A DNA stretch of 33,190 nt from positions 1 to 33,190 of the forward strand of contig CACYBB010000042.1 in NCBI GenBank assembly GCA_902772585.1. The letters are read 5' to 3'. This stretch comes from an uncultured Bacteroidales bacterium (lineage in GTDB: Bacteria; Bacteroidota; Bacteroidia; Bacteroidales; Bacteroidaceae). Shown here piece by piece: positions 3,765 to 30,987 of this stretch. Numbering within the stretch: position 1 is the first letter of the stretch; each line of letters opens with the position of its first letter. The position numbers were made by a program, and so were the translations under genes. The notes beneath the pieces were generated by a model. It ran no database searches and was not told where the DNA came from. It saw nothing but the letters and a program-made list of their open reading frames with translations.

Positions 3765-4775
3765 ATGATAAGAGCAACAAGACTACTATTATTTCTCGTA
3801 GCATCTACAATAGCGACAGCTACATACGGGCAACATCGGAGAAGGTCTTTCTCTACCGACACGCCCATGGTGCACGACCCCGTCATGGCCTACGAGGACA
3901 GCACCTACCACTTGTTCTGCACAGGTATGGGCATCCAGCACATGACGTCAAAGGATCGTAAGACGTGGACCATGGCCCCTACCCCCCTGATGACGGTAAT
4001 ACCGCAGTGGACGCACGACTCGGTGCCAGGTTTCCAGCAGCATGTCTGGGCACCTGATGTTATCCGGTGGCACGGACGCTGGTGGATGGGCTATAGCTGT
4101 TCTACGTTTGGCAAGAACGGGTCAGCCATCGGACTGCTTTCCACACATTCGCTGTCTGCTCCTATTTGGAATGACGAGGGTTGCATCGTTACATCGCGTG
4201 AGAAACGCGACCAGTGGAACGCCATAGATCCGTGCTTTGTCATTGACGACAACGACCAGCCCTGGATGGCATGGGGCTCCTTCTGGGACGGCATCCAACT
4301 GATTCGTCTCGACACCACCATGCACGTTGCTCAGGGAGAGAAGCCTCGCACCATTGCCCGTCGCTATGCGCCAGGGTGTAAAAATCAGGCACCCAATCCT
4401 ACGTCTAAGTTTGCGGGCACCAATGCCATCGAGGCTCCGTTCATCTATAAGCATGGTGGCTGGTATTACCTCTTCGTGGCGTGGGACTACTGCTGCCGTG
4501 GGTCCAAGAGCAACTACCGTGTGGCAGTAGGCCGCTCCAAGACGGTCGATGGTCCTTATCTCGACCGTGACGGTGTCGATATGCGCGAGGGCGGTGGTAC
4601 CTTATTTATGGAGGGCGACAAGCAGCAGTTTGAGGCTGCGGGCCACTGTGCTGCCTATACCCTCCACGGCGAAGACATCTTCATCTGCCACGGATACAGC
4701 ATTGCCCATAAGGGTGCCAGTATTCTCATTCAGCGTCCTATCCGCTGGACGACAGATGAGTGGCCCACACTTTAG
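3765..4775 (+). CDS. GH43 single-domain arabinanase-like enzyme
   Basis: A 336-residue secreted GH43 enzyme with a signal peptide ending around TATYGQ. It consists essentially of the five-bladed propeller, the size of compact endo-arabinanases. The triad is visible: Asp38 in MVHDPV, Asp155 in NAIDPC and Glu223 in NAIEAP. VWAPDV and the Trp-rich stretches WHGRWWMGY and WMAWGSFWDG fit substrate-stacking blades. It starts 1 nt after the stop of the previous GH43 gene, so the two are almost certainly translationally coupled. Within the family such enzymes cut alpha-1,5-arabinan internally or release oligosaccharides. With no lipobox it is probably periplasmic or secreted and may shorten oligosaccharides made by the two larger enzymes. 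That division of labour is inference. Confidence 0.85.
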   Translation: MIRATRLLLFLVASTIATATYGQHRRRSFSTDTPMVHDPVMAYEDSTYHLFCTGMGIQHMTSKDRKTWTMAPTPLMTVIPQWTHDSVPGFQQHVWAPDVIRWHGRWWMGYSCSTFGKNGSAIGLLSTHSLSAPIWNDEGCIVTSREKRDQWNAIDPCFVIDDNDQPWMAWGSFWDGIQLIRLDTTMHVAQGEKPRTIARRYAPGCKNQAPNPTSKFAGTNAIEAPFIYKHGGWYYLFVAWDYCCRGSKSNYRVAVGRSKTVDGPYLDRDGVDMREGGGTLFMEGDKQQFEAAGHCAAYTLHGEDIFICHGYSIAHKGASILIQRPIRWTTDEWPTL

Positions 4776-4783
4776 TGAAGAGG

Positions 4784-4832
4784 TAAGAGTTAAGAGTTAA
4801 GAATTAAGAGTTAAGAATTAAGAATTAAGAGT
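4784..4832 (+). repeat. 7-bp tandem array, seven TAAGARt units
   Basis: Seven consecutive heptamers (TAAGAGT or TAAGAAT, order G G A G A A G at the variable base) fill the gap between the third GH43 stop and the next start. The array ends 1 nt before the ATG at 4834, so it occupies the ribosome-binding region. Copy number changes would alter the leader without touching either reading frame. Confidence 0.9.
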
Positions 4833-4833
4833 G

Positions 4834-6939
4834 ATGCGTCGTATCGTTTTTTTATCATTTATCATTTGTCAATTAATATTTTGCGACGCAGTCGCGCAAA
4901 GTTGGACGGCAGACAATGGCAATGGCACATTTACCAATCCGTTGTTCTACGACGAGTTCTCCGACCCCGACATTCTGCGTGTGGGCGACGACTATTATCT
5001 GGCAGGCACCACCATGCACTCGGTACCAGGTCTTGTCATTCTACATTCCACGGACTTGGTCAACTGGGAGAATATCAGTTATTGCTTCGACCGCTTCGAC
5101 TTCCCTGACGATGCCTTCTCACTGAAGAACCACAAGGAAATCTACGGTCAGGGAGTCTGGGCACCAGCTATCCGCTATGCCAACGGACAGTTTTATCTCT
5201 TTACAAACATCAACGGCAAGGGTTTGCAGTGCTACACCTCCAAGGACATCCGTGGTCCGTGGAAGCACCATAACATGCAAGGGCGCATCTACGACCTCTC
5301 TGTACTCTTCGACGACGATGGCAAGATATACGCCATCCACGGTTATGGAGAGGTTAAATGTACGGAGTTGAAAGCAGATATGAGCGGTCCTATCGAGTCT
5401 ACCGAGCGTGTTATTATCCCTGAGGGCAACGCTGTAGGCGAGGGACACCATATATATAAGATAGGTGGCATGTACTACCTTATCTCTACCGATTACAAGC
5501 CCAATGGGCGTACGCTCTGCTCACGCTCTAAGAGTATCTGGGGACCTTATGAAACCATCACCATCACGGCTGACGAAACCTTTGGCTATCATGCTGCACC
5601 ATTGACGAAGATTCCCCGCGGCGTGAAGTACCGCATTGGAGAGGATGGCACACCGTTTGGCATCCCTACCGTCGACAAGGATGCTACCGCTTGTACCAAC
5701 ATTCATCAGGGTGGCATCGTCGAAGACCAGAGCGGACAGTGGTGGGCTCTGCTCATGATGGACTTCCACTCTATCGGTCGCACGGTAACGCTGGCACCTA
5801 TCACGTGGAAAGACGGCTGGCCCATGCTGGGGCTGGAGGGCAACCTGGGTCGTGCGCCTCGTACGTGGCTCAAGCCCAATGTGGCGTCTGCTGCTCCTCA
5901 TGCCCCCTACGATCGCAATGAGGATTTTAACGGCAAGGCGCTTGGTCGCATCTGGCAGTGGAACCACAACCCCGACGATAGCAAGTGGAGTCTGAAGAAC
6001 GGTCGTCTACGCCTGCTGTCGATGCCTGCCGAACAACTGATGTGGGCTCGTAATACGCTCACCCAGCGAGTCATCGGACCGTCCTCCATTACCACTGTTG
6101 AACTCTATACCAAGGGAATGAAGGATGGCGATGTCTGCGGACTGGGCAACATCAACGTGCCCTGCTCGTGGATAGGGGTAAGCCTCCCCCTATCCCCCTC
6201 CAAAAAGAGGGGGAACACCTATCGCCTTCGTTGTTTTGAACAGCTCACCAACGATACCGTAGATATCGATGTGGAATTACCACAGAATAAAATTTGGCTC
6301 CGCAGCATGGGCGACTACGACAACGACCAGGCACAGTATGCCTACTCGTTGGATGGCGTCCACTTCCAGCCGTTGGGTCGCATGATGCCCCTCTCTTACC
6401 AGCTCGTTACCTTCCAAGGCTCGCGCCACGCCCTCTTCGCCTTCAACAGCAAAGACAAGCAGGGCGGCTATGCCGAGTTCGACAACTTTACCGTCGTAGA
6501 ATCCAAAGCCGACCGCAGCGGCAACATACCCTACGGCAAGACCTTCCGCATCATCAACCTTGCCACAGGTCGTCCGGCTATCGCTTTGGAGCATGGTCTG
6601 CTGTATGACGCCAAGTCAACGGACAAGAGTCAAGAGACCCGTTTCCGCCTCATCGATAAAGGTCAGGGCCAGGTCGTGCTACAATGTGCCGATGGCCGCT
6701 ACGTCTTCTGTGCTGGCTATGGTCTTGCAGGCGATGTCCGTCTGACAGCAGATAGTTCTAAAGCCGAGGTGTTTATGTGGCAAGACTATCTCGACCACGA
6801 ATTCATGCTCATGTCCATGCGCACCCATCGATACATCGGCAAGAGTCCTACAACAGGCAGTCCCTACTCCATGGACTTCCCTGGTGCCGACCCAGCCCGT
6901 CGCAATGGTGCCGTATTCCGCTGGGAAGAGGTCAAATAA
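4834..6939 (+). CDS. GH43 exo-type arabinofuranosidase/xylosidase-like multidomain enzyme
   Basis: A 701-residue secreted GH43 protein; I prefer ATG 4834 over the adjacent GTG 4831, which falls in the repeat array. A signal peptide ends near CDAVAQ. The N-terminal propeller (about 30-330) has Asp44 in SDPDI, Asp154 in IYDLS and Glu203 in VGEGH, the layout of exo-acting beta-xylosidases and alpha-L-arabinofuranosidases. Residues about 360-570 form a beta-sandwich like the C-terminal domain of GH43 xylosidases (NEDFNGKALGRIWQWNHNP start). The last 130 residues (from TFRIINLATGR) look like a beta-trefoil carbohydrate-binding module, judged only from repeated hydrophobic/Gly patterns. Residues about 450-461 (SLPLSPSKKRGN) come from an inserted C-rich/G-rich palindrome. 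Context suggests removal of arabinose side chains or terminal sugars from arabinan oligosaccharides. Confidence 0.82.
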   Translation: MRRIVFLSFIICQLIFCDAVAQSWTADNGNGTFTNPLFYDEFSDPDILRVGDDYYLAGTTMHSVPGLVILHSTDLVNWENISYCFDRFDFPDDAFSLKNHKEIYGQGVWAPAIRYANGQFYLFTNINGKGLQCYTSKDIRGPWKHHNMQGRIYDLSVLFDDDGKIYAIHGYGEVKCTELKADMSGPIESTERVIIPEGNAVGEGHHIYKIGGMYYLISTDYKPNGRTLCSRSKSIWGPYETITITADETFGYHAAPLTKIPRGVKYRIGEDGTPFGIPTVDKDATACTNIHQGGIVEDQSGQWWALLMMDFHSIGRTVTLAPITWKDGWPMLGLEGNLGRAPRTWLKPNVASAAPHAPYDRNEDFNGKALGRIWQWNHNPDDSKWSLKNGRLRLLSMPAEQLMWARNTLTQRVIGPSSITTVELYTKGMKDGDVCGLGNINVPCSWIGVSLPLSPSKKRGNTYRLRCFEQLTNDTVDIDVELPQNKIWLRSMGDYDNDQAQYAYSLDGVHFQPLGRMMPLSYQLVTFQGSRHALFAFNSKDKQGGYAEFDNFTVVESKADRSGNIPYGKTFRIINLATGRPAIALEHGLLYDAKSTDKSQETRFRLIDKGQGQVVLQCADGRYVFCAGYGLAGDVRLTADSSKAEVFMWQDYLDHEFMLMSMRTHRYIGKSPTTGSPYSMDFPGADPARRNGAVFRWEEVK
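6178..6222 (+). repeat. C-rich/G-rich palindromic insertion inside the GH43 coding sequence
   Basis: CCCCCTC at 6194-6200 and GAGGGGG at 6207-6213 form a 7-bp stem with a CAAAAA loop, preceded by a second C-run. The segment is read in frame as Ser-Leu-Pro-Leu-Ser-Pro-Ser-Lys-Lys-Arg-Gly. Its base composition and peptide are unlike the flanks, and it lies in what should be a short hairpin of the beta-sandwich domain. A related hairpin (CCCCCT-ACAC-AGGGGG) occurs between genes at 29749-29764. Confidence 0.6.
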
Positions 6940-6959
6940 CATCAGACATCATACATCAG
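6939..6959 (+). repeat. 7-bp tandem array, three ACATCAK units
   Basis: ACATCAG ACATCAT ACATCAG runs from the last base of the GH43 stop codon into the stop codon of convergent miaA (TCA at 6956-6958 on this strand). It bridges the two genes exactly. Confidence 0.7.
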
Positions 6960-7948
6960 CCGCATAGCGCCAATATCTGCTGCACCTTGTCCTCCATGGG
7001 CTGCAGCGCATCAATCCAGTGAATGGAAAATCCACGACGTTCCATGCCACGGAACCAAGTCATCTGACGCTTGGCAAACTGGTGGATAGCAATCTCCAGT
7101 CGCTTGAACATCTCATCGTAGGTTGTCTGTCCCATGATATACTCCGTGACAAACTTGTACTCCAATCCGTAGTATATCAAGTCTTCAGCAGGAATGCCCT
7201 CAGCGAGCAGTCCCTTGACTTCATCTATCATTCCCTCCTCCAGGCGTGTCTTCAGACGGCGTGAAATCTTCTCGCGACGAGCCTCGCGGTCAATGTTGAC
7301 ACCAATAATTAATGAGTCGACGGGCGGCATCTCGCGATGGTCTGTCGGTGTATGCAGGTTATACGTCTCTATCTCGATGGCACGAATGGCACGCTGGCAA
7401 GAGTCCACATCCGTTTTGTTGTGCATCGTAGACCCATTCTGCTGTTTCAGTTCTACCAGCATCTGTGTCAGTTCATCAAGTGTCTTACCCTCCAGACTTG
7501 CCCGCAATGCCGGGTTCTGGGGTACAGGAGACAGCTGGTAGCCCTTCAGCACCGCCTCGATGTACAAGCCCGTACCACCACAGAGGATGGGTGTCTTGCC
7601 CCTACTTATTATATCATGGTAGGCATCAAAGAAGTCTTGCTGATACTGGAAGAGGTTGTACTTCGTGCCGGGCTCGCAGATGTCAATGAGGTGATAAGGG
7701 ATGGTTAATGGTTCTTGGTTAATGGTTAATGATGACCCCTGAACCATGGACCCTGAACCATGAACCGTATAGTCTGCGAGGTCCTTGCCGGTGCCGATGT
7801 CCATGCGGCGGTACACCTGGCGGGAGTCGGCAGAGATTATTTCCCCGCCACATTCACCATTAACGGGCGGTAGTGCTACCGCCAAAGCCGCAGCCAACGG
7901 GGTCTTGCCACTGGCTGTAGGTCCGAGTATGGTAATCATCTGCTGCAT
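6956..7948 (-). CDS. miaA: tRNA dimethylallyltransferase with an in-frame repeat insertion
   Basis: MiaA transfers a dimethylallyl group to the N6 of A37 in tRNAs reading UNN codons. The P-loop GPTASGKT is at residues 9-16, followed by EIISADSRQVYRRMDIGTGKD, the IPYHLID motif, GGTGLY and the C-terminal FAKRQMTWFRG, all typical of the family. At 330 residues it is 20-30 longer than usual. The excess is mostly residues 62-82 (HGSGSMVQGSSLTINQEPL and flanks), which sit between LADYTV and IPYHLID where homologues have a few residues, and are encoded by a 63-bp heptamer array. A second small excess (PPVNGECG, about 27-34) precedes EIISADS. The catalytic motifs are intact, so the enzyme is probably functional. 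It converges with the GH43 gene; a strong terminator separates it from gapA upstream. Confidence 0.93.
   Translation of the reverse strand: MQQMITILGPTASGKTPLAAALAVALPPVNGECGGEIISADSRQVYRRMDIGTGKDLADYTVHGSGSMVQGSSLTINQEPLTIPYHLIDICEPGTKYNLFQYQQDFFDAYHDIISRGKTPILCGGTGLYIEAVLKGYQLSPVPQNPALRASLEGKTLDELTQMLVELKQQNGSTMHNKTDVDSCQRAIRAIEIETYNLHTPTDHREMPPVDSLIIGVNIDREARREKISRRLKTRLEEGMIDEVKGLLAEGIPAEDLIYYGLEYKFVTEYIMGQTTYDEMFKRLEIAIHQFAKRQMTWFRGMERRGFSIHWIDALQPMEDKVQQILALCG
7703..7765 (-). repeat. 7-bp tandem array of nine units inside miaA
   Basis: Read on the + strand the units are GGTTAAT, GGTTCTT, GGTTAAT, GGTTAAT, GATGACC, CCTGAAC, CATGGAC, CCTGAAC, CATGAAC. Nine heptamers make 63 bp, or 21 codons, so the frame is kept. 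The array encodes the extra loop of MiaA between residues 62 and 82. Confidence 0.85.
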
Positions 7949-7973
7949 GGTGATGCAAAAGTAACAAAAAAAT

Positions 7974-7996
7974 GCCGTCCGACAAAATCGGACGGC
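7974..7996 (-). terminator. Terminator downstream of gapA
   Basis: GCCGTCCGA and TCGGACGGC form a perfect 9-bp stem with a 5-nt loop. On the - strand it is followed by a run of seven T (the A-run at 7966-7972 on +), so it ends gapA transcription before miaA. A shorter T-run on the other side could make it bidirectional. Confidence 0.88.
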
Positions 7997-8019
7997 ACAA
8001 TTTTTATATCTGAGTGGTA

Positions 8020-8936
8020 TTATTTCAACTCAGCGAGGTACTTGATAGTACGAACCATCTGAGAAGTGTAAGAGTTCTCATTGTCGTACCAAGCAACAAC
8101 CTGTACGAGAGAGTTGCCATCACCGATCTTAGAAACCATAGTCTGGTTAGCGTCGAACAGTGAACCGAACTTCATACCGATGATGTCGCTAGAAACCAGC
8201 TTCTCCTCAGTGTAACCGAAACTCTCGTTCTGAGCAGCCTTCATAGCAGCGTTGATATCCTCAACAGTTACCTCACCCTTAACAACAGCGTGCAGGATAG
8301 TGGTAGAACCTGTAGGAGTTGGAACGCGCTGAGCAGCACCGATCAGCTTACCGTTCACAGAATCATCTGGTCGCCAGTGTAAGCGTGTACAGTAGTCATG
8401 ATACCGCTCTGGATAGGAGCGAAATCGTTCAGAGCCTTGGTCATAGGAGCCAAGCAGTTAGTTGTACAAGAAGCAGCGCTGATAACAGTGTCAGCAGGAG
8501 TCAGAGTCTTGTGGTTAACGTTGTAAACGATAGTGGGCAGATCGTTACCAGCAGGAGCAGAGATAACAACCTTCTTAGCACCAGCAGTCAGGTGAGCAGA
8601 AGCCTTCTCCTTAGATGTGTAGAAACCTGTGCACTCCAGAACAACGTCTACGTCCAGCTTACCCCAAGGCAGCTCAGCAGCGTTAGGAATAGCGTAGATA
8701 GTGATCTTCTTACCATCAACAACGATGTAGTCCTCACCAGCCTCTACAGTGTGCTTGTTCTCACCGAACTTGCCACAGAAACCACCCTGAGCGGTGTCAT
8801 ACTTCAGCAGATGAGCCAGCATCTTTGGGCTGGTCAAGTCGTTGATTGCTACTACCTCATAACCCTCGGCCTCGAACATCTGACGGAATGCGAGACGACC
8901 AATACGGCCAAAACCGTTAATTGCTACTTTTGTCAT
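8020..8936 (-). pseudogene. gapA: Glyceraldehyde-3-phosphate dehydrogenase, internal deletion plus frameshift
   Basis: Type I GAPDH converts glyceraldehyde 3-phosphate to 1,3-bisphosphoglycerate with NAD in glycolysis. The 5' part (8936 down to 8355) encodes 193 residues with the NAD-binding start [11 protein letters not shown], the catalytic Cys in ASCTTNC and the catalytic His in VHAYTGDQ, then MIL and TGA. The 3' part (from about 8358 to 8020) resumes one frame over with [16 protein letters not shown] and reaches the normal C-terminus (WYDNENSY…). Between them some 36 residues normally present are missing, including the S-loop region around LRRAR and NIVPNSTGAAKA that contacts NAD and neighbouring subunits. 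The loss fits about 109 nt (3n+1). Either the gene is dead and another gapA exists, or the assembly is wrong here. Both halves remain highly conserved, which favours a recent or artefactual event. Confidence 0.9.
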
Positions 8937-9028
8937 AATTCTTAATCTTTTTATAAAAAATGAGTTATAAATTTGCTTTCTACATCAAAAAATGTGCCTT
9001 TTGTTGCACTTTTTTCCGTTTTCGGGCA

Positions 9029-9036
9029 CAAAGTTA
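9029..9036 (-). promoter_or_regulatory. -7 element for gapA (TAACTTTG)
   Basis: On the - strand TAACTTTG matches the Bacteroidetes TAnnTTTG element, about 90 nt upstream of the gapA ATG. No clear -33 TTG was seen at the usual spacing. Confidence 0.6.
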
Positions 9037-9048
9037 CAAAAAAATATC

Positions 9049-9056
9049 TATATTTG
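9049..9056 (+). promoter_or_regulatory. -7 element for mscL-sulP (TATATTTG)
   Basis: TATATTTGCAC matches TAnnTTTG and lies about 146 nt upstream of the mscL ATG, back to back with the gapA promoter. The long leader contains two heptamer arrays. Confidence 0.5.
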
Positions 9057-9079
9057 CACTTGAAATCAGTCTTAATTTA

Positions 9080-9114
9080 AGTGAAAAGTGAAAAAGCAAA
9101 AGCGAAAAAGCGGC
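9080..9114 (+). repeat. 7-bp tandem array, five AGTGAAA-type units
   Basis: AGTGAAA AGTGAAA AAGCAAA AGCGAAA AAGCGGC: five diverged heptamers in the mscL leader, just downstream of the putative -7 element. Confidence 0.7.
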
Positions 9115-9162
9115 AAATCAACGTTTCAAGGTTAAGATTGTAAAACGCAGTTAGCAAAAATA

Positions 9163-9197
9163 CAGTTTAAAGTTTATAGTTTACAATTTAAAGATTA
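9163..9197 (+). repeat. 7-bp tandem array, five CAGTTTA-type units
   Basis: CAGTTTA AAGTTTA TAGTTTA CAATTTA AAGATTA ends 5 nt before the mscL ATG and so occupies the ribosome-binding region, as the array before the last GH43 gene does. Confidence 0.75.
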
Positions 9198-9202
9198 CGA
9201 CT

Positions 9203-9598
9203 ATGGGATTTATTAAAGAATTCAAAGAGTTTGCCATGAAGGGCAACGTAATGGACATGGCAGTCGGTGTTATCATCGGCGGTGCTTTCGGTAAGATTGT
9301 ATCTAGTCTGGTCAACGATGTACTGATGCCTCTTATTGGCATGATCACGGGCAACATCGACTTCACGACTTTGTCATTCAAGATTGGCGAGGGTGAGGAT
9401 GCTGCTGTACTGGCTTATGGAAATTTCATCCAGAACACTGTTGACTTCATCATCGTCGCCTTCTGTATCTTCTTGATGCTGAAAGCCATCAACAAGCTGA
9501 ACCGTAAGAAGGAAGAGCCCGCTGCTCCTGAGGCTCCCAAGGGTCCCACGCAGGAAGAACTGCTCGCTGAGATTCGTGACCTGTTGAAGAACAAGTAA
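9203..9598 (+). CDS. mscL: Large-conductance mechanosensitive channel
   Basis: MscL is an inner-membrane homopentamer that opens under membrane tension to release solutes on hypo-osmotic shock. The 131-residue protein has the amphipathic N-terminal helix ([15 protein letters not shown]), the Gly/Ala-rich pore helix TM1 ([17 protein letters not shown]), the periplasmic loop, TM2 (about 75-97, [19 protein letters not shown]) and a C-terminal helix bundle segment ending [14 protein letters not shown]. Length and order are normal. The start is supported by the conserved MGF.KEF opening. The sulP gene follows after 23 nt, so the two are probably cotranscribed. Confidence 0.96.
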
Positions 9599-9621
9599 TT
9601 ATTTATTGGAATAGAAAAGAT

Positions 9622-11331
9622 TTGAAAAAGACATTAGATTTCAAACCCAAATTCTTTTCGGCCATCAAGAACTACGACCGTAAGACCTTCGTAGCCGACT
9701 TGATGGCCGGACTGATTGTTGGTATCGTTGCACTGCCGTTGGCCATTGCCTTCGGTATTGCCAGCGGTGTAAGCCCTGAGAAGGGCATCATCACCGCCAT
9801 CGTTGCCGGACTGTTTATCTCATTGTTCGGTGGTAGTAAAGTTCAGATTGGTGGACCCACGGGTGCTTTCATCGTCATCGTCTATGGCATCATCCAACAG
9901 TATGGCATTCAGGGACTGACCATTGCCACGCTGATGGCTGGCGTGTTCCTCATCATGCTGGGTGTGCTGCGCCTGGGAACCATCATCAAGTACATTCCCT
10001 ACCCCATCGTGGTCGGTTTCACCAGCGGTATTGCCGTTACCATCTTCACCACGCAGGTAAAAGACCTACTGGGCATGTCGATTGAGGGCGCCATTCCTAG
10101 CGACTTCATCGCCAAATGGGGAGTATACCTATCTAATATAAGTAATATAGACCCGTGGAGTGCATTGGTAGGTGTTGTTTCCGTTGCTATCATTGCTGCA
10201 TGGCCCATGCTGGCACGTTTATTCCACTTGTCACCACTCAAGGCACTACCCGGTTCGCTGGTTGCCATCATTGTGATGACCGTTGCCGTATTGTTACTCA
10301 AGCAGTATGCTGGTGTGACAAGCGTCGAGACCATTGGTGACCGCTTCAGCATCAACTCAACATTACCAGGTGCCGTTGTTCCGGAACTCTCATGGGAGAC
10401 CATCAAAGGGCTTGTCGGCCCTGCTGTCACCATCGCCGTGTTGGGTGCTATTGAGTCACTACTGTCAGCCACTGTTGCTGATGGTGTCATTGGAGACCAC
10501 CACAACTCAAACACTGAGCTTATCGGTCAGGGTATTGCCAATCTGGCATCGCCCATCTTCGGTGGTATTCCTGCTACAGGCGCCATTGCCCGTACCATGA
10601 CCAATATCAACAACGGCGGACGCACACCTGTGGCTGGCATTATCCATGCTGCCGTGCTGATGCTCATCTTCCTGTTCCTCATGCCACTGGCGCAGTATAT
10701 CCCTATGGCCTGTCTGGCTGGTGTACTGGTCGTCGTTTCTTACGGTATGAGTGGTTGGCGCTCGTTCCTGGCCATGACTCGCAATCCGAAGAGCGATGTC
10801 ACTGTGCTCTTGCTGACATTCTTCCTGACCATCATCTTCGATCTCACCGTTGCTATCGAGTTCGGCCTTATATGTTCCTGTCTGCTCTTCATGCGTCGTA
10901 TGTCGGAGACCACTGATGTTAAGGCCATCTACGACGAGATTGACCTCAATGAGGATGCCGACATGCAGGCTGGCAACTTGGAGCACCTCACCATCCCCGA
11001 GGGTGTCGAGGTATACGAGATCAATGGTCCTTATTTCTTTGGAGCAGGTAACCGTTTTGAGGATATCATGGCCCGCTATGGCAGTCGTCCCAAGGTGCGC
11101 ATCATCCGCATGCGTAAGGTACCATTCATCGATTCCACGGGACTCCACAACTTGGAGAACATGTGTCTGATGAGTCAGAAAGAGGGCATCACCATCGTCC
11201 TTTCTGGTGTCAACGAGAAAGTAGATGCTGTGCTGCGCCGCAACAACTTCGAACAGTTGTTGGGCAAGGAGAACATCTGCAACCACATTGACCTCGCTCT
11301 GGCACGTGCCAATGAGATTGTAGGTGCCTAA
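9622..11331 (+). CDS. SulP/SLC26-family anion transporter with STAS domain
   Basis: A 569-residue inner-membrane transporter of the SulP family, which moves sulfate, bicarbonate or other anions. The N-terminus (KNYDRKTFVADLMAGLIVG, then PLAIAFGIASGVSP) is the family signature. About 11-12 hydrophobic segments fill residues 25-435, and a cytoplasmic STAS domain covers about 455-560 with the conserved FIDSTG (Asp504). The start is TTG at 9622: the next in-frame ATG would remove the conserved cytoplasmic lead-in, and homologues begin at this point. It lies 23 nt after mscL. The substrate cannot be read from sequence. Confidence 0.93.
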   Translation: MKKTLDFKPKFFSAIKNYDRKTFVADLMAGLIVGIVALPLAIAFGIASGVSPEKGIITAIVAGLFISLFGGSKVQIGGPTGAFIVIVYGIIQQYGIQGLTIATLMAGVFLIMLGVLRLGTIIKYIPYPIVVGFTSGIAVTIFTTQVKDLLGMSIEGAIPSDFIAKWGVYLSNISNIDPWSALVGVVSVAIIAAWPMLARLFHLSPLKALPGSLVAIIVMTVAVLLLKQYAGVTSVETIGDRFSINSTLPGAVVPELSWETIKGLVGPAVTIAVLGAIESLLSATVADGVIGDHHNSNTELIGQGIANLASPIFGGIPATGAIARTMTNINNGGRTPVAGIIHAAVLMLIFLFLMPLAQYIPMACLAGVLVVVSYGMSGWRSFLAMTRNPKSDVTVLLLTFFLTIIFDLTVAIEFGLICSCLLFMRRMSETTDVKAIYDEIDLNEDADMQAGNLEHLTIPEGVEVYEINGPYFFGAGNRFEDIMARYGSRPKVRIIRMRKVPFIDSTGLHNLENMCLMSQKEGITIVLSGVNEKVDAVLRRNNFEQLLGKENICNHIDLALARANEIVGA

Positions 11332-11441
11332 TGCCGTAAAGTGATGTTCGTTTTGCCATACTGACTTTGCAAAGCCGATGGTTTTCAGAATTTATAACAT
11401 AATTATTTTGAATAATGATTTATGTTTTATGAAATAATTAG

Positions 11442-11449
11442 TATCTTTG
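11442..11449 (+). promoter_or_regulatory. -7 element for mdh (TATCTTTG)
   Basis: TATCTTTGCA fits TAnnTTTG and lies 34 nt upstream of the mdh ATG. The region before it is AT-rich without a clear TTG at 20 nt. The 150-nt gap after sulP holds an imperfect AT-rich inverted repeat and nothing else recognised. Confidence 0.65.
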
Positions 11450-11483
11450 CAGTTGGAAATTTCTAAGTAAACAAATAAGTATT

Positions 11484-12476
11484 ATGGCATTTTTAACTAA
11501 TGACAAACTGACCATCGTCGGCGCAGCCGGTATGATTGGTTCAAACATGGCTCAGAGCGCCCTGATGATGGGTCTGACCAAAAACATCTGTCTGTATGAC
11601 GTATTTTCACCCGAGGGTGTTGCTGAAGAAATGCGCCAGAGTGGTTTCGACGACGTAAACATCGTGGCTACCACCAACGCTGAGGAGGCTTTCCGCGACG
11701 CTAAGTACATCATCTCTTCTGGTGGTGCACCCCGTAAGGCTGGTATGACCCGTGAGGATCTGCTCGCCGGCAACTGTAAGATTGCTGAGGAGTTGGGCCA
11801 GAACATCAAGAAGTACTGCCCCGATGTGAAGCACGTCGTCATCATCTTCAACCCCGCTGACCTCACTGGTCTGGTAACCCTGCTCTATTCTGGTTTGAAG
11901 CCAGGTCAGGTTACTACCCTCGCAGGTCTGGACACTACCCGTCTGCAGAGCGCACTGGCAAAGAAGTTCGGTGTTATGCAGAGCGAGATTAAGGGTTGCG
12001 CTACCTATGGTGGTCATGGTGAGCAGATGGCTGTATTCGGCAGCCACGTAGAGATTGCTGGTCGCAAGCTGACTGACATCATCGGTACTGCAGAGTTCCC
12101 CGCTGAGGAGTGGGAGCAGATGAAGGTTGATGTCACCAAGGGTGGTGCCAAGATTATCGAGCTTCGCGGACGCAGTTCATTCCAGAGCCCCGCATACCTC
12201 TCGGTCGAGATGATTCGTGCTGCTATGGGTGGTGAGCCTTTCCGTTTCCCCGTTGGCACATACGTAAAGACCGACAAGTACGACCACATCATGATGGCTA
12301 TGAAGACCACCATGACTGCTGAGGGTGCTAAGTTCGAGGTTCCTCAGGGTACTGCCGAGGAGAATGCTAAGCTCGACCAGAGCTACGAGCACCTGTGCAA
12401 GATGCGCGACGAGCTGGTTACGCTGAACATCGTTCCTCCCATTGCTGAGTGGAGCAAGATTAACCCGAACTTGTAA
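11484..12476 (+). CDS. mdh: Malate dehydrogenase
   Basis: This NAD-dependent enzyme interconverts malate and oxaloacetate; in anaerobic Bacteroidales it feeds the reductive branch leading to fumarate, succinate and propionate. The 330-residue protein opens with a Rossmann fold (TIVGAAGMIG), has the substrate-binding arginine segment APRKAGMTRED, the IIFNPAD motif, a second Arg in LDTTRLQ, and the catalytic His178 in TYGGHGEQ. Length is normal for the Bacteroidetes type. It is a single-gene unit with its own -7 element and stacked hairpins downstream. Confidence 0.93.
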   Translation: MAFLTNDKLTIVGAAGMIGSNMAQSALMMGLTKNICLYDVFSPEGVAEEMRQSGFDDVNIVATTNAEEAFRDAKYIISSGGAPRKAGMTREDLLAGNCKIAEELGQNIKKYCPDVKHVVIIFNPADLTGLVTLLYSGLKPGQVTTLAGLDTTRLQSALAKKFGVMQSEIKGCATYGGHGEQMAVFGSHVEIAGRKLTDIIGTAEFPAEEWEQMKVDVTKGGAKIIELRGRSSFQSPAYLSVEMIRAAMGGEPFRFPVGTYVKTDKYDHIMMAMKTTMTAEGAKFEVPQGTAEENAKLDQSYEHLCKMRDELVTLNIVPPIAEWSKINPNL

Positions 12477-12551
12477 TCAATTGAGGCTTTTCAATTGATT
12501 TCGTAATAAGAAACAGGGCGTTCGCTGAAAGTTTTTGCGGACGTCCTGTTT
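12475..12551 (+). terminator. Two consecutive hairpins after mdh
   Basis: The first hairpin pairs AATCAATTGA (12475-12484) with TCAATTGATT (12491-12500), starting in the mdh stop codon. The second pairs 12511-12525 with 12537-12551 in a 15-bp stem with two G·U pairs, followed by TCTTT. The second is the better Rho-independent terminator. Confidence 0.75.
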
Positions 12552-12651
12552 TCTTTATACCTTTGCATCAAGAAAACAGAAACAGGTTTTTCATATAGTT
12601 TTAGATTCATCATTTAAGGTTAGTAGTTTTTTCATAGTAATTGGATTGTAT

Positions 12652-12670
12652 GCCCGTCGGGATGACGGGC
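12652..12670 (+). terminator. Third hairpin in the mdh-phosphoesterase gap
   Basis: GCCCGTC and GACGGGC form a 7-bp GC-rich stem with a 5-nt loop, followed by TTATTTTTTG. It stands directly before the next promoter and insulates it from upstream transcription. Confidence 0.75.
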
Positions 12671-12688
12671 TTATTTTTTGTCTGTTTG

Positions 12689-12720
12689 TTTGGTGAATAA
12701 AAAATAAATTGATACCTTTG
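12689..12720 (+). promoter_or_regulatory. Promoter of the metallophosphoesterase gene
   Basis: TTTG at 12689-12692, 20 nt, then TACCTTTG at 12713-12720: a full match to the Bacteroidetes -33/-7 pair, 19 nt before the ATG. Confidence 0.85.
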
Positions 12721-12739
12721 CCCCACCAAAGCAAAAACA

Positions 12740-13882
12740 ATGAAGATGATGTGGATGATGATGTTTACGCTACTGCCCCTGCTGGCACTATCGTATATCG
12801 GGTGGCACGTTTGGTGCCTGTTACCCGTCAAGTGGTATGTCAAAACTATCGTGATTGCCATGATGGTGGCCTCATTCCTATTACTGTTTGCTGGTTTCAG
12901 ACGAGCTACCGACAGTATGCCGATGCCACTGGCCACTACGGTTTATGTGATAGGAACTTCCAGCATCTTCATCCTACTCTACCTGTTCATGCTTTTCCTT
13001 GCATTAGACTTAGGGCGACTGGTGCATCTCATCCCGCGTACCTTATTATATAATAACTGGCGGATGGCGGGAGGCATCACAGTCTTCATCTTTGGTTTGT
13101 TCCTCTATGGTCATCTGAACTACAAGCACAAGGTGCGACAGGAGTTAACCATTGCGTCGAAGAAAGTCACCAAGCCCTTCAAAGCCGTGCTGCTGAGCGA
13201 CCTGCACCTGGGTTATCACAATCAACGCGACGAGTTGCATCGCTGGGTGGATATCATCAATAGCGAGAAACCCGACCTGATACTTATTGCTGGCGACATC
13301 ATTGATGGCAGCATGCGTCCACTAAAGGAGCAACGGATGCATGAAGAGTTTCGCCTCCTGCAGGCTCCCGTCTATGCCTGTTTGGGTAACCATGAATATT
13401 TCAGCGGACAACCCGACGCCCTGCAGTTCTACAAGGACGCAGGCATCCACCTGCTTATGGACGACACTGCAATCATCGACAGCACTCTAGTTATCATTGG
13501 TCGCGACGATGCAATGAATAGAAAACGTAAAACGCTAGCAGACCTCGCCAAGACGATTGACAAGTCGATGTTCTCCATCGTATTAGACCACCAGCCTCAT
13601 CATCTGGAACGTGCTGAGAAGGCTGGCATCGACTTCCAATTCAGTGGTCACACCCATCGTGGACAGGTATGGCCCATCTCATGGATTACTGATGCCGTCT
13701 ACGAGTGTTCATGGGGTAGTCACCAGCGTGGCGACACCCACTACTACATCAGTTCCGGAATGGGTATTTGGGGCGGTATGTTTCGCATCGGCACCCAGTC
13801 GGAATACGTGGTGTTAGAGATAAGAGGAATTCGCAACGCCACACTCTGCTCTGCAGAGAAGAGGGATGATGGAAGAGGTTAA
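12740..13882 (+). CDS. Membrane-anchored metallophosphoesterase (calcineurin-like)
   Basis: A 380-residue protein with about four N-terminal transmembrane segments (roughly 9-28, 35-53, 67-90, 109-125) and a C-terminal metallophosphatase domain. The five motifs are present: SDLHLG (153-158), GDIIDG (about 186), GNHEY (about 218), then H in LDHQPHH and GHTHRGQ (about 299), which bind two metal ions. This layout matches the YkuE-like family; members act on phosphomono- or diesters, and UDP-sugar or lipid-linked substrates have been suggested for relatives. The substrate here is unknown. The stop overlaps the stop of the convergent hexapeptide gene by 4 nt with no terminator between, so the 3' ends of the two mRNAs are antisense to each other. 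Confidence 0.88.
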   Translation: MKMMWMMMFTLLPLLALSYIGWHVWCLLPVKWYVKTIVIAMMVASFLLLFAGFRRATDSMPMPLATTVYVIGTSSIFILLYLFMLFLALDLGRLVHLIPRTLLYNNWRMAGGITVFIFGLFLYGHLNYKHKVRQELTIASKKVTKPFKAVLLSDLHLGYHNQRDELHRWVDIINSEKPDLILIAGDIIDGSMRPLKEQRMHEEFRLLQAPVYACLGNHEYFSGQPDALQFYKDAGIHLLMDDTAIIDSTLVIIGRDDAMNRKRKTLADLAKTIDKSMFSIVLDHQPHHLERAEKAGIDFQFSGHTHRGQVWPISWITDAVYECSWGSHQRGDTHYYISSGMGIWGGMFRIGTQSEYVVLEIRGIRNATLCSAEKRDDGRG

Positions 13883-14400
13883 AAGCGACAATCCGGGTTT
13901 TCTTCCATGAAGATCTTGGCGTACTCCACATAGTGCTTGGAGTTGTCAGTCTGACCAGGGCGAACGGGCTTGAGGTATTTGGCTGGCACGCCACCCCATA
14001 TCTCACCAGCAGGAATCTTCGTATTCTGCAGCACCAAGGCACCAGCTGCAACGATGGAACCCTCACCCACCTCACAGCCATCCAGCAACGTAGAACCCAT
14101 ACCTATCAAGGCACCGTCGTGAATAGTGCAGGCATGAACAGTGACGTTGTGTCCGATGGTGACATCGCTGCCAATATGCGTAGGGCCCGTCTCGTGGGTG
14201 ACATGAATACAAGAACCGTCCTGCACATTCGAGCGGTCGCCAATAGTAATAGGTGCCACATCGCCACGAACAACGGCATTGAACCAGATGGAGCACTGGT
14301 CACCCATCTGTACGTCACCCACAATCGTTGCATTCTCACTGAAATAGCAGTCCTTGCCCCACTTGGGCGTCAGACCACGATAGGATTTGATTAAAGCCAA
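13879..14400 (-). CDS. Gamma-carbonic-anhydrase-like hexapeptide-repeat protein
   Basis: A 173-residue left-handed beta-helix protein with repeated hexapeptides (ATIVGDV, SIWFNAVVRGD, TIGDRSNVQDG, IVAAGALV) and the C-terminal helix starting GVPAKYLKP. His66, His84 and His89 occupy the positions of the three metal ligands of gamma-class carbonic anhydrases and YrdA/PaaY-type proteins. Whether it hydrates CO2 or has an acetyltransferase-like or structural role cannot be told from sequence; many bacterial members have weak or no measured activity. It is the last gene of a - strand cluster after gltX and waaA, 50 nt downstream of waaA across an octamer array. Confidence 0.9.
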   Translation of the reverse strand: MALIKSYRGLTPKWGKDCYFSENATIVGDVQMGDQCSIWFNAVVRGDVAPITIGDRSNVQDGSCIHVTHETGPTHIGSDVTIGHNVTVHACTIHDGALIGMGSTLLDGCEVGEGSIVAAGALVLQNTKIPAGEIWGGVPAKYLKPVRPGQTDNSKHYVEYAKIFMEENPDCRF

Positions 14401-14414
14401 TTTCTTAATTTTTT

Positions 14415-14454
14415 CGTTATTACGTGATAACGTTATGTCGTTATTACGAGTTAT
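14415..14454 (-). repeat. 8-bp tandem array between waaA and the hexapeptide gene
   Basis: On the + strand the units are CGTTATTA CGTGATAA CGTTATGT CGTTATTA CGAGTTAT. Five diverged octamers run into the waaA stop codon (14451-14453). It also contains the inverted pair CGTTAT/ATAACG. It is the 8-bp counterpart of the heptamer arrays elsewhere in the window. Confidence 0.65.
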
Positions 14455-15671
14455 AGTTTTACTTGAGACAGGACCTTCTCAGTGGCACCCGCCAGACTGC
14501 TGACATAGGCACCTGCCTTCTCGCCCAACTCTTGCATCACCTCAGGATGCTCTTCGAAGCCCTGCATATAGCGACGGAAATCCTCAGCATTGGCAATCTC
14601 CAAACCAGCACCGCAAGCCTTCAAGCCTTGTGCCTCCTGAAAACGCTGGTTGTTGGGGCCGAAGAATACGGGGACATCCCATACTGCAGCCTCTAAGGTA
14701 TTGTGGATACCCACACCAAAGCCACCACCCACATACGTCACGTCAGCATAGTGGTAGATACTGCTTAGCAAGCCAAAGCAATTGATAATCAGTACCTCAG
14801 CATCCTTTACGTCTTCTTCTGTAGCCTCCGTATAGCGTACCACCTTGCGACCTTCCAACATCTTCTCAATCTGTTTTAAATGGTCTTCGCTAATGACATG
14901 TGGAGCAATGACGAGTTTCCAGTCCTGATGTTCATTGAGCCAGGGGATGAAAATCTCCTCATCGGGTTGCCAACTGCTACCTGCAATAAATACTTTCTTT
15001 TTATCGCAGAAAGACTCAACAATAGGCAACTGCTTGGCAGCAGCCTTAATCTGCAATACGCGATCGAAGCGAGTGTCACCAACCACCGACACATTGGTAA
15101 TGCCAATAGTTGCCAGCAGTTCCTTACTAATCTCATTCTGTACGAAGAAATGCGTGAAGCACTTCAGCACATGACTATACTGGCGACCATACCAGCGGAA
15201 GAACACCTGTCCTGGACGGAAGATGCTGCTAACGCTATAGACGGGTACGCCACGATGGCTCAGAATATGCAGATAGTTATACCAGAACTCGTACTTGATG
15301 AAGAATGCCATCACAGGGCGTATAGTACGCAGGAAGCGACGCGCATTGGTGATAGTGTCAAGGGGCAGATAACAGATGATGTCAGCACCCTCATAGTTCT
15401 TGCGCACCTCATAGCCTGAGGGTGAGAAGAACGTCAACAGAATCTTATATTCCGGATGCTCGCGACGCAATTGCTCCATCAGTGGACGACCCTGTTCGAA
15501 TTCACCCAGCGAAGCTGCATGAAACCATACATACTTGGCATCAGGATCCATCTTCTCCTTGATGACGCGTATGGCCTCGCGCTCGCCACGCCACATCTTG
15601 CGCACCTTCTCACTGAAAAGGCTCACAATGGCTACGCCACACAGATAGAGGAATATGATTAAGTTATACAT
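14451..15671 (-). CDS. waaA: 3-deoxy-D-manno-octulosonic acid (Kdo) transferase
   Basis: WaaA (KdtA) adds Kdo from CMP-Kdo to lipid A precursor at the inner membrane, starting the LPS core. The 406-residue protein has an N-terminal membrane anchor (NLIIFLYLCGVAIVSLF), the motif WFHAASLGEFEQGRP with the catalytic Glu57, the YEFWYN segment, and the C-terminal nucleotide-binding half with YVGGGFGVGIHNTLEAAVWDVPV, all typical of the GT30 family. Its ATG overlaps the gltX stop codon in a TAATG junction, so translation is coupled. Length is normal. Confidence 0.94.
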   Translation of the reverse strand: MYNLIIFLYLCGVAIVSLFSEKVRKMWRGEREAIRVIKEKMDPDAKYVWFHAASLGEFEQGRPLMEQLRREHPEYKILLTFFSPSGYEVRKNYEGADIICYLPLDTITNARRFLRTIRPVMAFFIKYEFWYNYLHILSHRGVPVYSVSSIFRPGQVFFRWYGRQYSHVLKCFTHFFVQNEISKELLATIGITNVSVVGDTRFDRVLQIKAAAKQLPIVESFCDKKKVFIAGSSWQPDEEIFIPWLNEHQDWKLVIAPHVISEDHLKQIEKMLEGRKVVRYTEATEEDVKDAEVLIINCFGLLSSIYHYADVTYVGGGFGVGIHNTLEAAVWDVPVFFGPNNQRFQEAQGLKACGAGLEIANAEDFRRYMQGFEEHPEVMQELGEKAGAYVSSLAGATEKVLSQVKL

Positions 15672-17233
15672 TAGCCCAAAACCTCAATAGCTCGTTTCAT
15701 TCTGGCGAGAGTCTCTTCCTTACCCAGGAAGGCAGAGAGTTCATACATGTCAGGCCCCTGACCCGTGCCAACAAGTGCAATGCGCCATGCGTTCCAAGGC
15801 TTGATACCCGTCTTCTCCACCCACGGGTCGACAATAGCTTTCTGGCCTTCCACGCTCCAATCATTGATAGTTTCCAGCACAGCAAGCATCTGGCGCATCA
15901 GGTCTGCTGTTTGCTCGTTCCAGTTCTTGCGGATAAACTTGTCACCCTCCCTGTCAAAATCAGTAGGAGCCACGAAGAAGAACTTGGTAAGCGGCCAGAG
16001 GTCACTGGGGAAGGAGATATTGCGCTTTCTGGTGTTTCCTTGTTTATCTACCACTTCAACAACCTTGGTCTTCATCATACGCACCACCTCAGCTTCCTGT
16101 TCGGCAGTGGCTGTAATACCATTCTTCTTCAGCACCTTGTCGAAGGCTGGGCACCAGTCGCTGTCCGGACGCTGCAAGAGGTACTGGCGGTTGAACCATT
16201 CTGCCTTCATAAAGTCAAACTTGGCACCATTCTTCGAGCACTTGGAGATATCGAACAAGTTGACCATCTCGTCGAGTGTCATCAGTTCCTGGTCGTTGCC
16301 AGGGCTCCAGCCCAACAGAGCTAAGAAGTTGATAACAGCCTCGGGCAAGTAGCCTTGCTCGCGATAGCCTGAGCTGACTTCGCCCGTCTTGGGGTCATGC
16401 CACTCTAAAGGAAACACGGGGAAACCCAGCTTGTCACCATCACGCTTGGACAGCTTGCCATTGCCGACAGGCTTCAGCAGCAGGGGCAGGTGGGCAAACT
16501 GGGGCATAGTATCTTCCCAGCCGAAAGCACGATACAGCATGACGTGCAAGGGGGCACTGGGCAACCACTCCTCACCACGGATAACGTGCGAGATTTCCAT
16601 CAGGTGGTCGTCAACGATGTTGGCCAAATGGTAGGTGGGCAACTCGTCAGCACTCTTGTAGAGCACCTTGTCGTCGCAGATGTCGCTCTTTACGCGCACC
16701 TCGCCACGAATCAGGTCGTTGACCAGAATCTCCTGACCAGCCTCCACCTTGAAGCGGACAACATACTGGTGGCCAGAGGCTATCAGCGCATCGACCTCTT
16801 CCTTTGGAAGAGTCAGCGAGTTGCGCATCTGCTGGCGGGTGTGACAGTCGTACTGGAAATTCTGAATCTCAGCACGCTTGGCCTCTAACTCCTCAGGAGT
16901 ATCAAAGGCAATGTATGCCTTGTCAGCATCCAACAACTGCTTGACATATTTCTTATAAATATCGCGGCGCTCGCTCTGACGGTAGGGACCCTTGTCGCCA
17001 CCAAACGAGACACCCTCGTCAAACTTAATACCTAACCACTTGAACGATTCGATGATGTATTCCTCTGCACCAGGCACGAAACGGTTCGAGTCGGTATCCT
17101 CAATACGGAACACCAAATCGCCACCATGCTGCTTGGCAAACAGGTAATTATACAAGGCTGTGCGTACACCACCGATATGCAAAGCACCCGTCGGACTGGG
17201 TGCAAAACGTACTCTTACTCTTCTATCAGACAT
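15671..17233 (-). CDS. gltX: Glutamyl-tRNA synthetase
   Basis: This class I aminoacyl-tRNA synthetase charges tRNA-Glu with glutamate. I choose the ATG at 17233 ([16 protein letters not shown]), giving 520 residues; an upstream in-frame ATG at 17266 would include the putative promoter. HIGG (19-22) is the HIGH-type ATP motif and KLSKR (260-264) the KMSKS-type motif. A Glu-specific core ([41 protein letters not shown]) and an alpha-helical anticodon-binding C-terminus follow. It leads a - strand cluster with waaA and the hexapeptide gene. Confidence 0.96.
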
Positions 17234-17255
17234 ATATAAACGTGTATTTTGTGCG

Positions 17256-17263
17256 CAAAGGTA
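17256..17263 (-). promoter_or_regulatory. -7 element for gltX (TACCTTTG)
   Basis: TACCTTTG on the - strand fits TAnnTTTG, 22 nt upstream of the chosen gltX start, and supports that start over the longer one. Confidence 0.7.
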
Positions 17264-17273
17264 CAAAATATTT

Positions 17274-17308
17274 ATGAATTATTAAACATGAATTATGAAT
17301 TATTTCGT
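17274..17308 (+). repeat. 7-bp tandem array in the gltX-pgpH divergent region
   Basis: ATGAATT ATTAAAC ATGAATT ATGAATT ATTTCGT: five heptamers that run straight into the pgpH -7 element, which itself starts in phase (ATCTTTG). Confidence 0.75.
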
Positions 17309-19519: not shown

Positions 19520-19551
19520 CACCCGATTTTAGCGAAATAAGTTTAAAAGTT

Positions 19552-29991: not shown

Positions 29992-30987
29992 TTATTTGTT
30001 GATGAATACCTTTTTACCATTCACGATATACAGACCCTTGGTGGGGTTTGCCACGCGGCGACCCTGCAGGTCGTAGTATTCGCCACTTACATCTTCCATC
30101 TTACCTCTTACCTCGTTTATGCTCGTCGTATTGCCGTCGAAGCCGAAGAACTTGGGAGCGAGGGAGCCACTGCTATACGTCAGGTATGCCTTGTTGGCGC
30201 CAATGGTTCCGCTGGCACCGAGCTTGTAGAAGCCTGCGCCCGTTGCTGCCTTATAGTTCAGCACGTAGGCATTGCCCGGGTTCGTGATGTTGGTCATCGT
30301 GCCCACGAGGCTGTTGCCCGAGTAGTCGTCGGAACTGTTCGAGCTGGTCGGGGTCATGGTGATGCTGCCCGACGTAGTCTTCTTCAGCACCACGCCCTGG
30401 CCTTTCTTCACGATGCGGTCTGTGATTTCGGTCATCTCAATCGCCGTGCCAGCGAGTGCAACCTTGAACACCTGCGTACCTTCGGGAGCCTTAAAGTTGC
30501 TTGCATTGCTATAGAACGTGGCCCAGTATTCGCCCGATGCACCCTCGTTGGCGGTGACGTTGAAGGGGGCGTAGCCGTAAACCTCAATCTTTTTTATACC
30601 CTTACTCTGCATATTGCCACCATCAATGGGTGTGCCATTTATTCTCGGCGTCTTATCCTCTTCCGTGGTTTCTACTACGAAAGGAGCTTCGCTGTCTGTT
30701 GCTGTACGATTGGATTCGTCATAGAATTTACATTTGGTGATGGTATATCCTTCGGCTGCATTGACGGTTGCCGACCAACCGTATCCCCACCATCCCCACT
30801 GAGCGAGGTATGCTGAGCTCCCTCCTGCAGTATAACTGAATGAAACGGTTGCCACATTCGCCGTACTGTAGCTGGCTTGCTCTTTGGCTGTTGCCGTAAT
30901 TGTGGTCAGCAGCGTCTCGGTCTGCGCCACTGCGCCCGTAGCTGCCATCATCAGCAGCACGAGCAATGAAAGTAATTTTCTTTTCAT
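29992..30987 (-). CDS. Secreted protein with C-terminal surface/secretion tail
   Basis: A 331-residue protein with signal peptide (MKRKLLSLLVLLMMAATGAVAQ) and a body rich in Ser, Thr, Gly and aromatic residues with beta-strand character; WGWWGYGW near residues 65-72 is notable. The end (INEVRGKMEDVSGEYYDLQG, then RRVANPTKGLYIVNGKKVFINK) is the same class of tail as on the second GH43 paralogue at 3640-3763. In the middle, SGEYWATFYSNASNFKAPEG resembles the short repeat often preceding this tail in Prevotella proteins. No enzymatic motif was seen. Probably surface-exposed or exported; function unknown. It has its own -7 element at 31058-31065. Confidence 0.82.
   Translation of the reverse strand: MKRKLLSLLVLLMMAATGAVAQTETLLTTITATAKEQASYSTANVATVSFSYTAGGSSAYLAQWGWWGYGWSATVNAAEGYTITKCKFYDESNRTATDSEAPFVVETTEEDKTPRINGTPIDGGNMQSKGIKKIEVYGYAPFNVTANEGASGEYWATFYSNASNFKAPEGTQVFKVALAGTAIEMTEITDRIVKKGQGVVLKKTTSGSITMTPTSSNSSDDYSGNSLVGTMTNITNPGNAYVLNYKAATGAGFYKLGASGTIGANKAYLTYSSGSLAPKFFGFDGNTTSINEVRGKMEDVSGEYYDLQGRRVANPTKGLYIVNGKKVFINK

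Follow-up and report, generated by a model that had tools for sequence, protein, structure and literature searches.

Tandem arrays of period seven, with units that differ between species at the same gene positions, in an uncultured Bacteroidales genome and its relatives

We analysed a 33,190-nucleotide stretch of DNA from an uncultured Bacteroidales bacterium (contig CACYBB010000042.1, positions 1 to 33,190; hereafter the window) for short tandem arrays whose units recur every 7 bp. The contig (C42) is part of a 2.86-Mb draft genome of 92 contigs, referred to here as the source genome or G000; the other G numbers are genomes of relatives. The relatives that match its miaA gene are mostly metagenome-assembled genomes (MAGs) of Prevotella or Prevotellaceae, many from ruminants, which suggests a Prevotella-type rumen organism. 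Arrays were scored as segments at a fixed lag, with +1 for a match and -2 for a mismatch, and the window was compared with 100 shuffles that preserved dinucleotides within 300-base blocks. Tandem Repeats Finder (TRF) was also applied. The arrays of the window, and the gene that holds two of them, are the following.

4774..4832, + strand: array of AGTTAAG/AATTAAG, about 8.4 units (TRF score 83; lag-7 score 34)
4851..4875, + strand: array of TTTATCA, 3.6 units, close to where the downstream open reading frame (ORF) begins (TRF score 36; lag-7 score 11)
6939..6959, no strand assigned: array of ACATCAG, 3 units, over the stop codons of convergent genes (TRF score 35; lag-7 score 10)
6956..7948, - strand: miaA, tRNA dimethylallyltransferase (Pfam IPPT, E 4.2e-59, match 44-301, spanning the arrays)
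7701..7731, - strand: array of GGTTAAT (ATTAACC in the miaA frame), inside miaA (lag-7 score 12)
7732..7766, - strand: array of GGTTCAT/GGTTCAG (miaA frame), of opposite polarity (TRF period 14 score 56, period 7 score 42)
9079..9114, + strand: array of AAGTGAA in the mscL leader, clean for 2.3 units and degenerate after that, with a shift of one base (found by TRF)
9163..9197, + strand: array of AGTTTAN, about 5 units (TRF score 40; lag-7 score 11)
17272..17308, no strand assigned: degenerate array of TTATGAA (TRF score 43 for 17272-17303; lag-21 score 12)
30086..30114, - strand: array of CTTACAT/CTTACCT, 3.7 units, inside ORF 29992-30987 (- strand) (lag-7 score 13)

An original prediction, made from the sequence alone, had named six such places, and all six are present with coordinates that are exact or a few bases off. 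The excess at lag 7 over shuffled sequence was found as well: six segments of the window score at least 10 (4778-4830, 4851-4871, 6939-6958, 7701-7731, 9164-9190 and 30086-30114) against a shuffle mean of 0.06 and a maximum of 1, and each of the other lags from 2 to 6 and 8 to 12 gives zero to two segments. The period is strict, as had been said, and the units themselves are non-identical. Four of the six predicted arrays pass this threshold; the two that fall below it are degenerate, 9080-9114 with a one-base phase shift (TRF segments 9079-9094 and 9084-9111) and 17274-17308 with a score of 12 at lag 21 only. Two arrays had been overlooked, 4851-4875 and 30086-30114, the latter within an ORF. 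Five of the six predicted arrays do lie in gene gaps, with 6939-6959 overlapping two convergent stop codons: the first fills the space between an upstream ORF ending at 4775 and a downstream ORF starting at 4831, 9163..9197 ends shortly upstream of the mscL start codon (9203), and 17272..17308 lies between divergent genes with ORF ends at 17266 and 17339. A restriction to gene borders was not borne out by the wider set, where 58/132 arrays lie within an ORF of 90 codons or more that extends at least 20 codons to either side, although some such ORFs probably do not represent genes. Folding of the 4774-4832 array and of the mscL leader arrays as RNA was not significant.

The preference for period 7 extends beyond the window. 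Our sample of the source genome (the window and the first 20 kb of 20 contigs, 433 kb or 15% of the genome) holds 23 lag-7 arrays scoring at least 14, where shuffled sequence has none and the other lags (2-6 and 8-13) give zero to six each (lag 8, six; lags 9 and 11, four each). Pooling 1.03 Mb of four array-bearing genomes gave 79 arrays at lag 7, 15 at lag 8, 12 at lag 9, four each at lags 6 and 11, two at lag 10 and zero or one at each of lags 2-5. Period 7 thus exceeds both other periods and shuffled sequence, a property of the class of heptanucleotide simple repeats. Period-8 arrays with near-palindromic units such as ACGTTATA/TCGTAATA also recur in the source genome (L032 10782, L033 16643, L035 13443, L038 18348 and L039 16854).

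The density of the arrays is patchy across genomes. First samples of five genomes of the genus gave 46-110 arrays per Mb, the relatives among them contributing 36 in 400 kb (G097), 11 in 100 kb (G066), nine in 100 kb (G162) and three in 65 kb (G067); two others gave zero, in the 100 kb sampled of G092 and the 24 kb sampled of G134. Density in G162 is uneven, since a further 200 kb held just three arrays scoring at least 12, one of them at 14. We found 21 arrays in 601 kb of 80 named miaA loci, miaA loops included, one array scoring at least 11 in nine named isolate-type loci (78 kb), one array in 287 kb (3 per Mb) of seven other Bacteroidales families, and no array scoring at least 12 at lags 2-15 in 50 kb of E. 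coli K-12.

Both arrays inside miaA (7701..7731 and 7732..7766) lie in frame in the loop between GTGKDL.DY and PYHLID. What had been described as one nine-unit array at 7703-7765 is two arrays of opposite polarity that are able to fold as a hairpin (-13.3 kcal/mol as DNA, z -2.6, 0/200 shuffles). Each of the 150 genomes of the genus gave a MiaA-like match, which in a few cases was weak; from 170 loci we read 157 loops, of which 141 are distinct. A period-7 array (lag-7 score of at least 10) is present in 16 of these 141. At lags 2-24 that are not multiples of 7, including the frame-keeping 3, 6, 9 and 12, no miaA loop reaches even 8, and none of 50 codon shuffles of the loops scored 10 at lag 7. 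Outside the loops (127 kb of miaA), a score of 10 is reached at lag 7 in four genes, at lag 12 in eight, at lag 6 in three and at other lags in zero to two.

The same loop is refilled with different units. By eye we read about a dozen, among them AAACATT, AAAGTTC, AATGCAC, CTCGACC, AAAGTGG, ATGAACC, AAAGATT, GAGGTGC, GGTTCAT, AATAACC, CACCCAT, CCACCTT and CTCTAGA, and every third unit is often a variant that avoids a stop codon in the reading frame (ATGAACC for ATTAACC, CATGAA for CATTAA; also by eye). Stop codons were also noted by eye as possible common content of the units. On a weakly supported fast tree built from miaA without the loop, array presence requires at least 14 changes for the 16 carriers, of which the well-supported branches force only five. 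The source bin holds a second miaA copy (G000:C66:1362-2288, L393) on a 4.7-kb contig, with an 87% identical protein and an AATAACC array of its own; it is either a paralogue or material from a related strain. A 36-nt difference between the loops of L077 and L079 was considered as a direct replacement, an idea weakened by the raised divergence around the loop.

Other genes show the same recurrence of a position rather than of a unit. The slot in the mscL leader lies behind a conserved stretch (CAGTCTTAATTTAA in the source genome), and in different species it is filled by AAGTGAA or ATTGAAA arrays or by more degenerate AAGATTA-like ones (by eye); although 9080-9114 is degenerate here, relatives have clear arrays at this place. 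Seven of 30 mscL upstream regions, that of the source genome included, score 10 at lag 7, and each other non-harmonic lag reaches this in at most one. For three further enzymes, where the pieces from relatives were chosen rather than random, arrays were found in 8 of 17 matched PrmA sequences (four unmatched), in 3/12 (loop 1) and 1/12 (loop 2) for LpxB (four unmatched each), and in 2/5 for PyrG (one unmatched). The periods are not purely 7: LpxB loop 2 has one case of period 9 and one of period 10, and PyrG one of period 8. Pfam searches of eight array-bearing proteins placed the array within the family match in five (MiaA, PyrG, LpxB, SurE and a tRNA_U5-meth_tr protein), and between two domain matches in two; in PrmA it precedes the match or touches its edge.

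The lengths of the in-frame insertions are varied. Relative to the common short form, the array-bearing PyrG segment is longer by 12 residues (twice), LpxB loop 1 by 10, 13 or 17, and the two PrmA loops together by 8, 8, 15, 15, 15, 16, 19 and 19; among array-bearing miaA loops, 6/16 equal the 30-residue form in length or deviate from it by 7. These differences indicate that arrays in genes mostly did not arise by single-unit additions to the short form. Net insertion in multiples of 21 nt, which we had also considered, is not the rule given the PyrG, LpxB and PrmA lengths. In LpxB of the source genome and two relatives (L364, L353, L367) we noticed by eye palindromic GC-rich inserts, which occupy the same two slots where G097 has heptamer arrays.

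Because one orthologous slot carries different units with the same 7-bp period across species, the common property is the period, as the original prediction held; its preference against a dispersed repeat family was incomplete, since dispersed families of units exist too. Units are partly genome-specific. Triplets of AAAGTTC (at most 3 mismatches, overlapping windows) number 152 in G097, 85 in G090 and three in the source genome, with 7, 16 and 15 in the respective reversed-pattern controls (a separate reversed-pattern control, for another unit, was uninformative, that unit being identical when reversed once rotated). Identical units are shared within genomes by 26 pairs against a label-shuffle mean of 16.0 (8/1000 as high), an excess that is gone when one mismatch is allowed (74 against 66.4; 139/1000).

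Some families also have fixed ends. Flanks match in 2/49 same-family pairs of the source genome (both promoter-like), 1/53 in G097, 5/31 in G162 and 1/13 in G066, and in 4/446, 4/978, 0/28 and 0/47 of their different-family pairs. The lone matching pair of G097 led to the core GAAGAATTTGCTGCCGC, which (at most 2 mismatches) occurs 41 times in G097, 70 times in G090 and twice in the source genome, with 3, 1 and 0 in reversed controls. Of seven TTTGCTNCCGC sites in 400 kb of G097, five directly follow an array of the AATGAAG or AAAAGTG type, and neither of the two sites in the source-genome sample stands behind an array. In PyrG, the arrays of G097 and of G053 are built of different units (AATGAAG and AAAAGTG) and end in the same core; among the matches listed, five AAAGTTC arrays begin at a distance of 7-14 nt behind a core. 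Our earlier view, formed by eye, that same-family flanks share nothing was rejected once a shared core had been found in both G097 and G090. In these two genomes (A)ATTTGCTNCCGC, a dispersed core, often stands beside heptamer arrays; it is nearly absent from the source genome and sometimes forms closely spaced inverted pairs, as at G097:C81 57970 and 58010.

A further family is AATTNTG of G162 and G148, whose arrays belong to a dispersed element with a palindromic head (by eye); its query region has 106 matches in G162, 101 in G148 and 122 in G042, often several per place. Among the matches listed, the fifth column is free (not A in 72/214 units of G162 and 31/116 of G148) and the other six vary in 32/1284 and 3/696 cells, nearly all listed G148 units having at most one mismatch. 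A general rule of six fixed bases and one free base was rejected: it is strong in AATTNTG, but AAAGTTC in G097 varies in several columns and pooled arrays are intermediate between two null models. Fixed ends or a core common to the copies, as would be expected of MITE- or REP-like elements, were thus seen for AATTNTG in G162 and G148 and for TTTGCTNCCGC in G097 and G090, and none was found in the source genome. Arrays also have inverted partners within 150 bp more often than expected (18/123 against about 0.2), with one of 31 in the source genome, 7/44 in G097, 10/19 in G162 and G066 together (clustered) and 0/29 in the named loci.

We propose, with a probability of about 0.42, that the arrays are short dispersed elements or their remains, with bodies of heptamer arrays that are copied with a step of about 7 nt and tolerated in neutral slots. 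Copying that advances preferentially by about 7 nt (8 or 9 less often) would build the body and later rebuild it, through slippage and through switching to the folded-back strand, the latter giving inverted arms. Blocks that hold arrays, in some cases together with a fixed core or head of 10-20 bp, would then be copied elsewhere in the genome; such spread would explain why units are genome-specific, why cores are fixed and why arrays enter genes as blocks, of any length that keeps the frame. The step and the strand switching would explain why there is a period, why the sequence is of no consequence and why arms are inverted, and the period would outlive turnover of the sequence. Persistence would be expected where length and sequence matter little, in leaders, promoter spacers, gene ends and exposed protein loops. 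What the sequences show directly is the peak at period 7 with its patchy distribution, the refilling of slots with other units, the placement in frame, the inverted partners and, for some families, fixed ends; the copying step, the spread, the neutrality and an enzyme are what we infer. The original prediction had favoured 7-bp slippage or unit copying over a dispersed family; the shared period speaks for that part, and the dispersed families, some with fixed ends, speak against it.

Several observations weigh against our proposal. In the source genome itself we found no fixed array ends (2/49 against 4/446 flank matches), and G097 has only the single same-family match (1/53 against 4/978). 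Direct partners within 150 bp are also above chance (12/123, about 0.2 expected), and the clustered places of G162 and G066 supply 10 of the 18 inverted ones. Arrays can be moved by allele exchange as well, as the raised divergence around the loop in L077/L079 reminds us. Unit number varies across species; within the one species pair compared for this (G162 and G148, 92-98% identity, about 121 kb aligned), no 7-, 14- or 21-nt insertion or deletion was found in the aligned blocks. The comparison of unit number that the original prediction had suggested for strains was made in this pair, where three of four aligned arrays keep their unit number: two are of equal length with base changes, and a third keeps five units with three variable bases differing and 3 nt at the edge. 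The fourth is 11 bases longer in G162. A pair of AATTNTG elements is present in G162 only, not in G148.

The closest competitor is purely local slippage with a 7-nt step, in which each array is born from resident sequence and grows or decays unit by unit, with no copying between sites. It would explain the sharp peak at 7 with its tail at 8 and 9, the many unit families within one genome and the lack of shared ends in the source genome, and the substitution pattern is intermediate, with a top-column share of 0.58 where a null of point mutation gives 0.49 and one of slippage plus mutation 0.69. Genome-specific units and fixed cores do not fit it, and single 7-bp steps would frameshift PyrG, LpxB and PrmA, whose additions are instead 12, then 10, 13 or 17, and 8, 15, 16 or 19 residues. 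The core shared by arrays in G097 and G090 lowered our confidence in pure slippage, which we now hold to be a possible but weaker account. We are more doubtful still that these bacteria possess an activity dedicated to making arrays, such as a polymerase or a reverse transcriptase that re-primes in steps of 7 nt. It would insert stem-loops, with arms of heptamers and a short core that is fixed, into leaders and also, with the frame kept, into core genes, and in at least one family it would add one free base per cycle.

The location of several arrays in leaders and promoter spacers, and the six nearly fixed columns and one free column of AATTNTG (72/214 against 32/1284 in G162), would suit binding sites or structured leaders kept by selection, with a ligand that needs 7-bp spacing, as in the proposal for TAACTGA; orthologous slots that freely lose or replace their unit, 125 of 141 miaA loops without an array by our threshold, and the use of both orientations and of coding positions make this improbable. 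Selection on the protein, with in-gene arrays as linkers whose DNA period mirrors a 7-residue periodicity, is very unlikely: an array-free miaA hairpin is laid out similarly (by eye), but a 21-nt protein periodicity gives no 7-nt period in DNA, period 7 dominates outside genes too, and codon-shuffled loops lose the lag-7 signal. We give least credence of all to an artefact of assembly or binning. Our sources are mostly MAGs, the second miaA copy lies on a 4.7-kb contig of this bin and the nine isolate-type loci hold a single array, yet the near-closed G162 and G148 (2 contigs, 99% complete) carry many AATTNTG arrays and orthologous slots agree across many independent assemblies.

Heptamer arrays as such are not new; the original prediction was aware of no description in this group, but one exists (TAACTGA, below). 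The 2007 survey of Mrazek, Guo and Shah, as cited in PMC4679880 and PMC4692102, found heptamers over-represented among bacterial simple sequence repeats and suggested that slippage reflects a 7-nt contact of the polymerase; a later survey covers long simple sequence repeats of prokaryotes (PMC4060949). Like the heptanucleotide long repeats, the arrays studied here have an excess of period 7 over other periods; unlike them, they are found in genomes of Prevotella type, have imperfect units, can lie in frame within enzymes, show units that turn over at orthologous slots, and come with inverted arms and, for some families, with ends that are fixed. Arrays of TAACTGA were described in Beggiatoaceae, Cyanobacteria and five Bacteroidetes (MacGregor 2015, PMC4679880), with 7-nt insertions or deletions between Cyanothece strains, mixed heptamers in some Bacteroidetes and some relatives without repeats at the same place. 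As presented there, they too are 7-bp direct repeats often just upstream of start codons, but with one focal unit, whereas here there are many units, the slot recurs rather than the unit, and core genes are included; TAACTGA and its complement are absent among 78 consensus units listed for the source genome and G097. The GGGNATC heptamers of Xanthomonas and Nostoc likewise form intergenic arrays and inverted pairs and vary in length among relatives (PMC4692102); as described, they are one G-rich family able to form quadruplexes, whereas the units here are diverse and mostly A+T-rich, and none of the 78 is a G-tract heptamer of that consensus (by eye).

The excess of heptamers, the slippage idea, TAACTGA and GGGNATC belong to the published record; in the open-access literature searched we found no description of such arrays in Prevotella, nor of unit turnover at fixed slots in that genus, in-frame slots of core enzymes included. 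Rickettsia palindromic elements are tolerated as in-frame insertions in protein genes; these are single palindromic elements, unlike the tandem heptamers here. What makes heptamers dominate among bacterial tandem repeats has stood as a question since 2007 at the latest, the year of the survey cited in PMC4692102. A lineage that keeps the period while the sequence is replaced at orthologous slots makes the question testable, and congeners with no arrays in the sampled stretches allow gene content to be contrasted between array-rich and array-poor species. In-frame heptamer insertions in CTP synthase, LpxB, MiaA and PrmA moreover affect protein alignments and gene models.

The window holds further features. 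In ORFs of two species a similar C-terminal tail, DLQGR.VA.PT.GLYI, is closely preceded by heptamer arrays of different units, 30086-30114 in the window and L271 9416-9446 in G066. At 6183-6213 (ORF 4831-6939) a protein gene contains, in frame, a GC-rich inverted repeat, CCCCCTCCAAAAAGAGGGGG; a pattern search for the GC-rich palindrome gave no match in the window. At 8020-8936 on the - strand, a gene resembling that of glyceraldehyde-3-phosphate dehydrogenase (named by eye) is split into the overlapping ORFs 8355-8936 and 8020-8358, so that in this assembly it appears to carry a frameshift. Repeats of a different kind occur at 20263-20421, where ORF 19498-21114 contains two tandem arrays with units of 21 bp.

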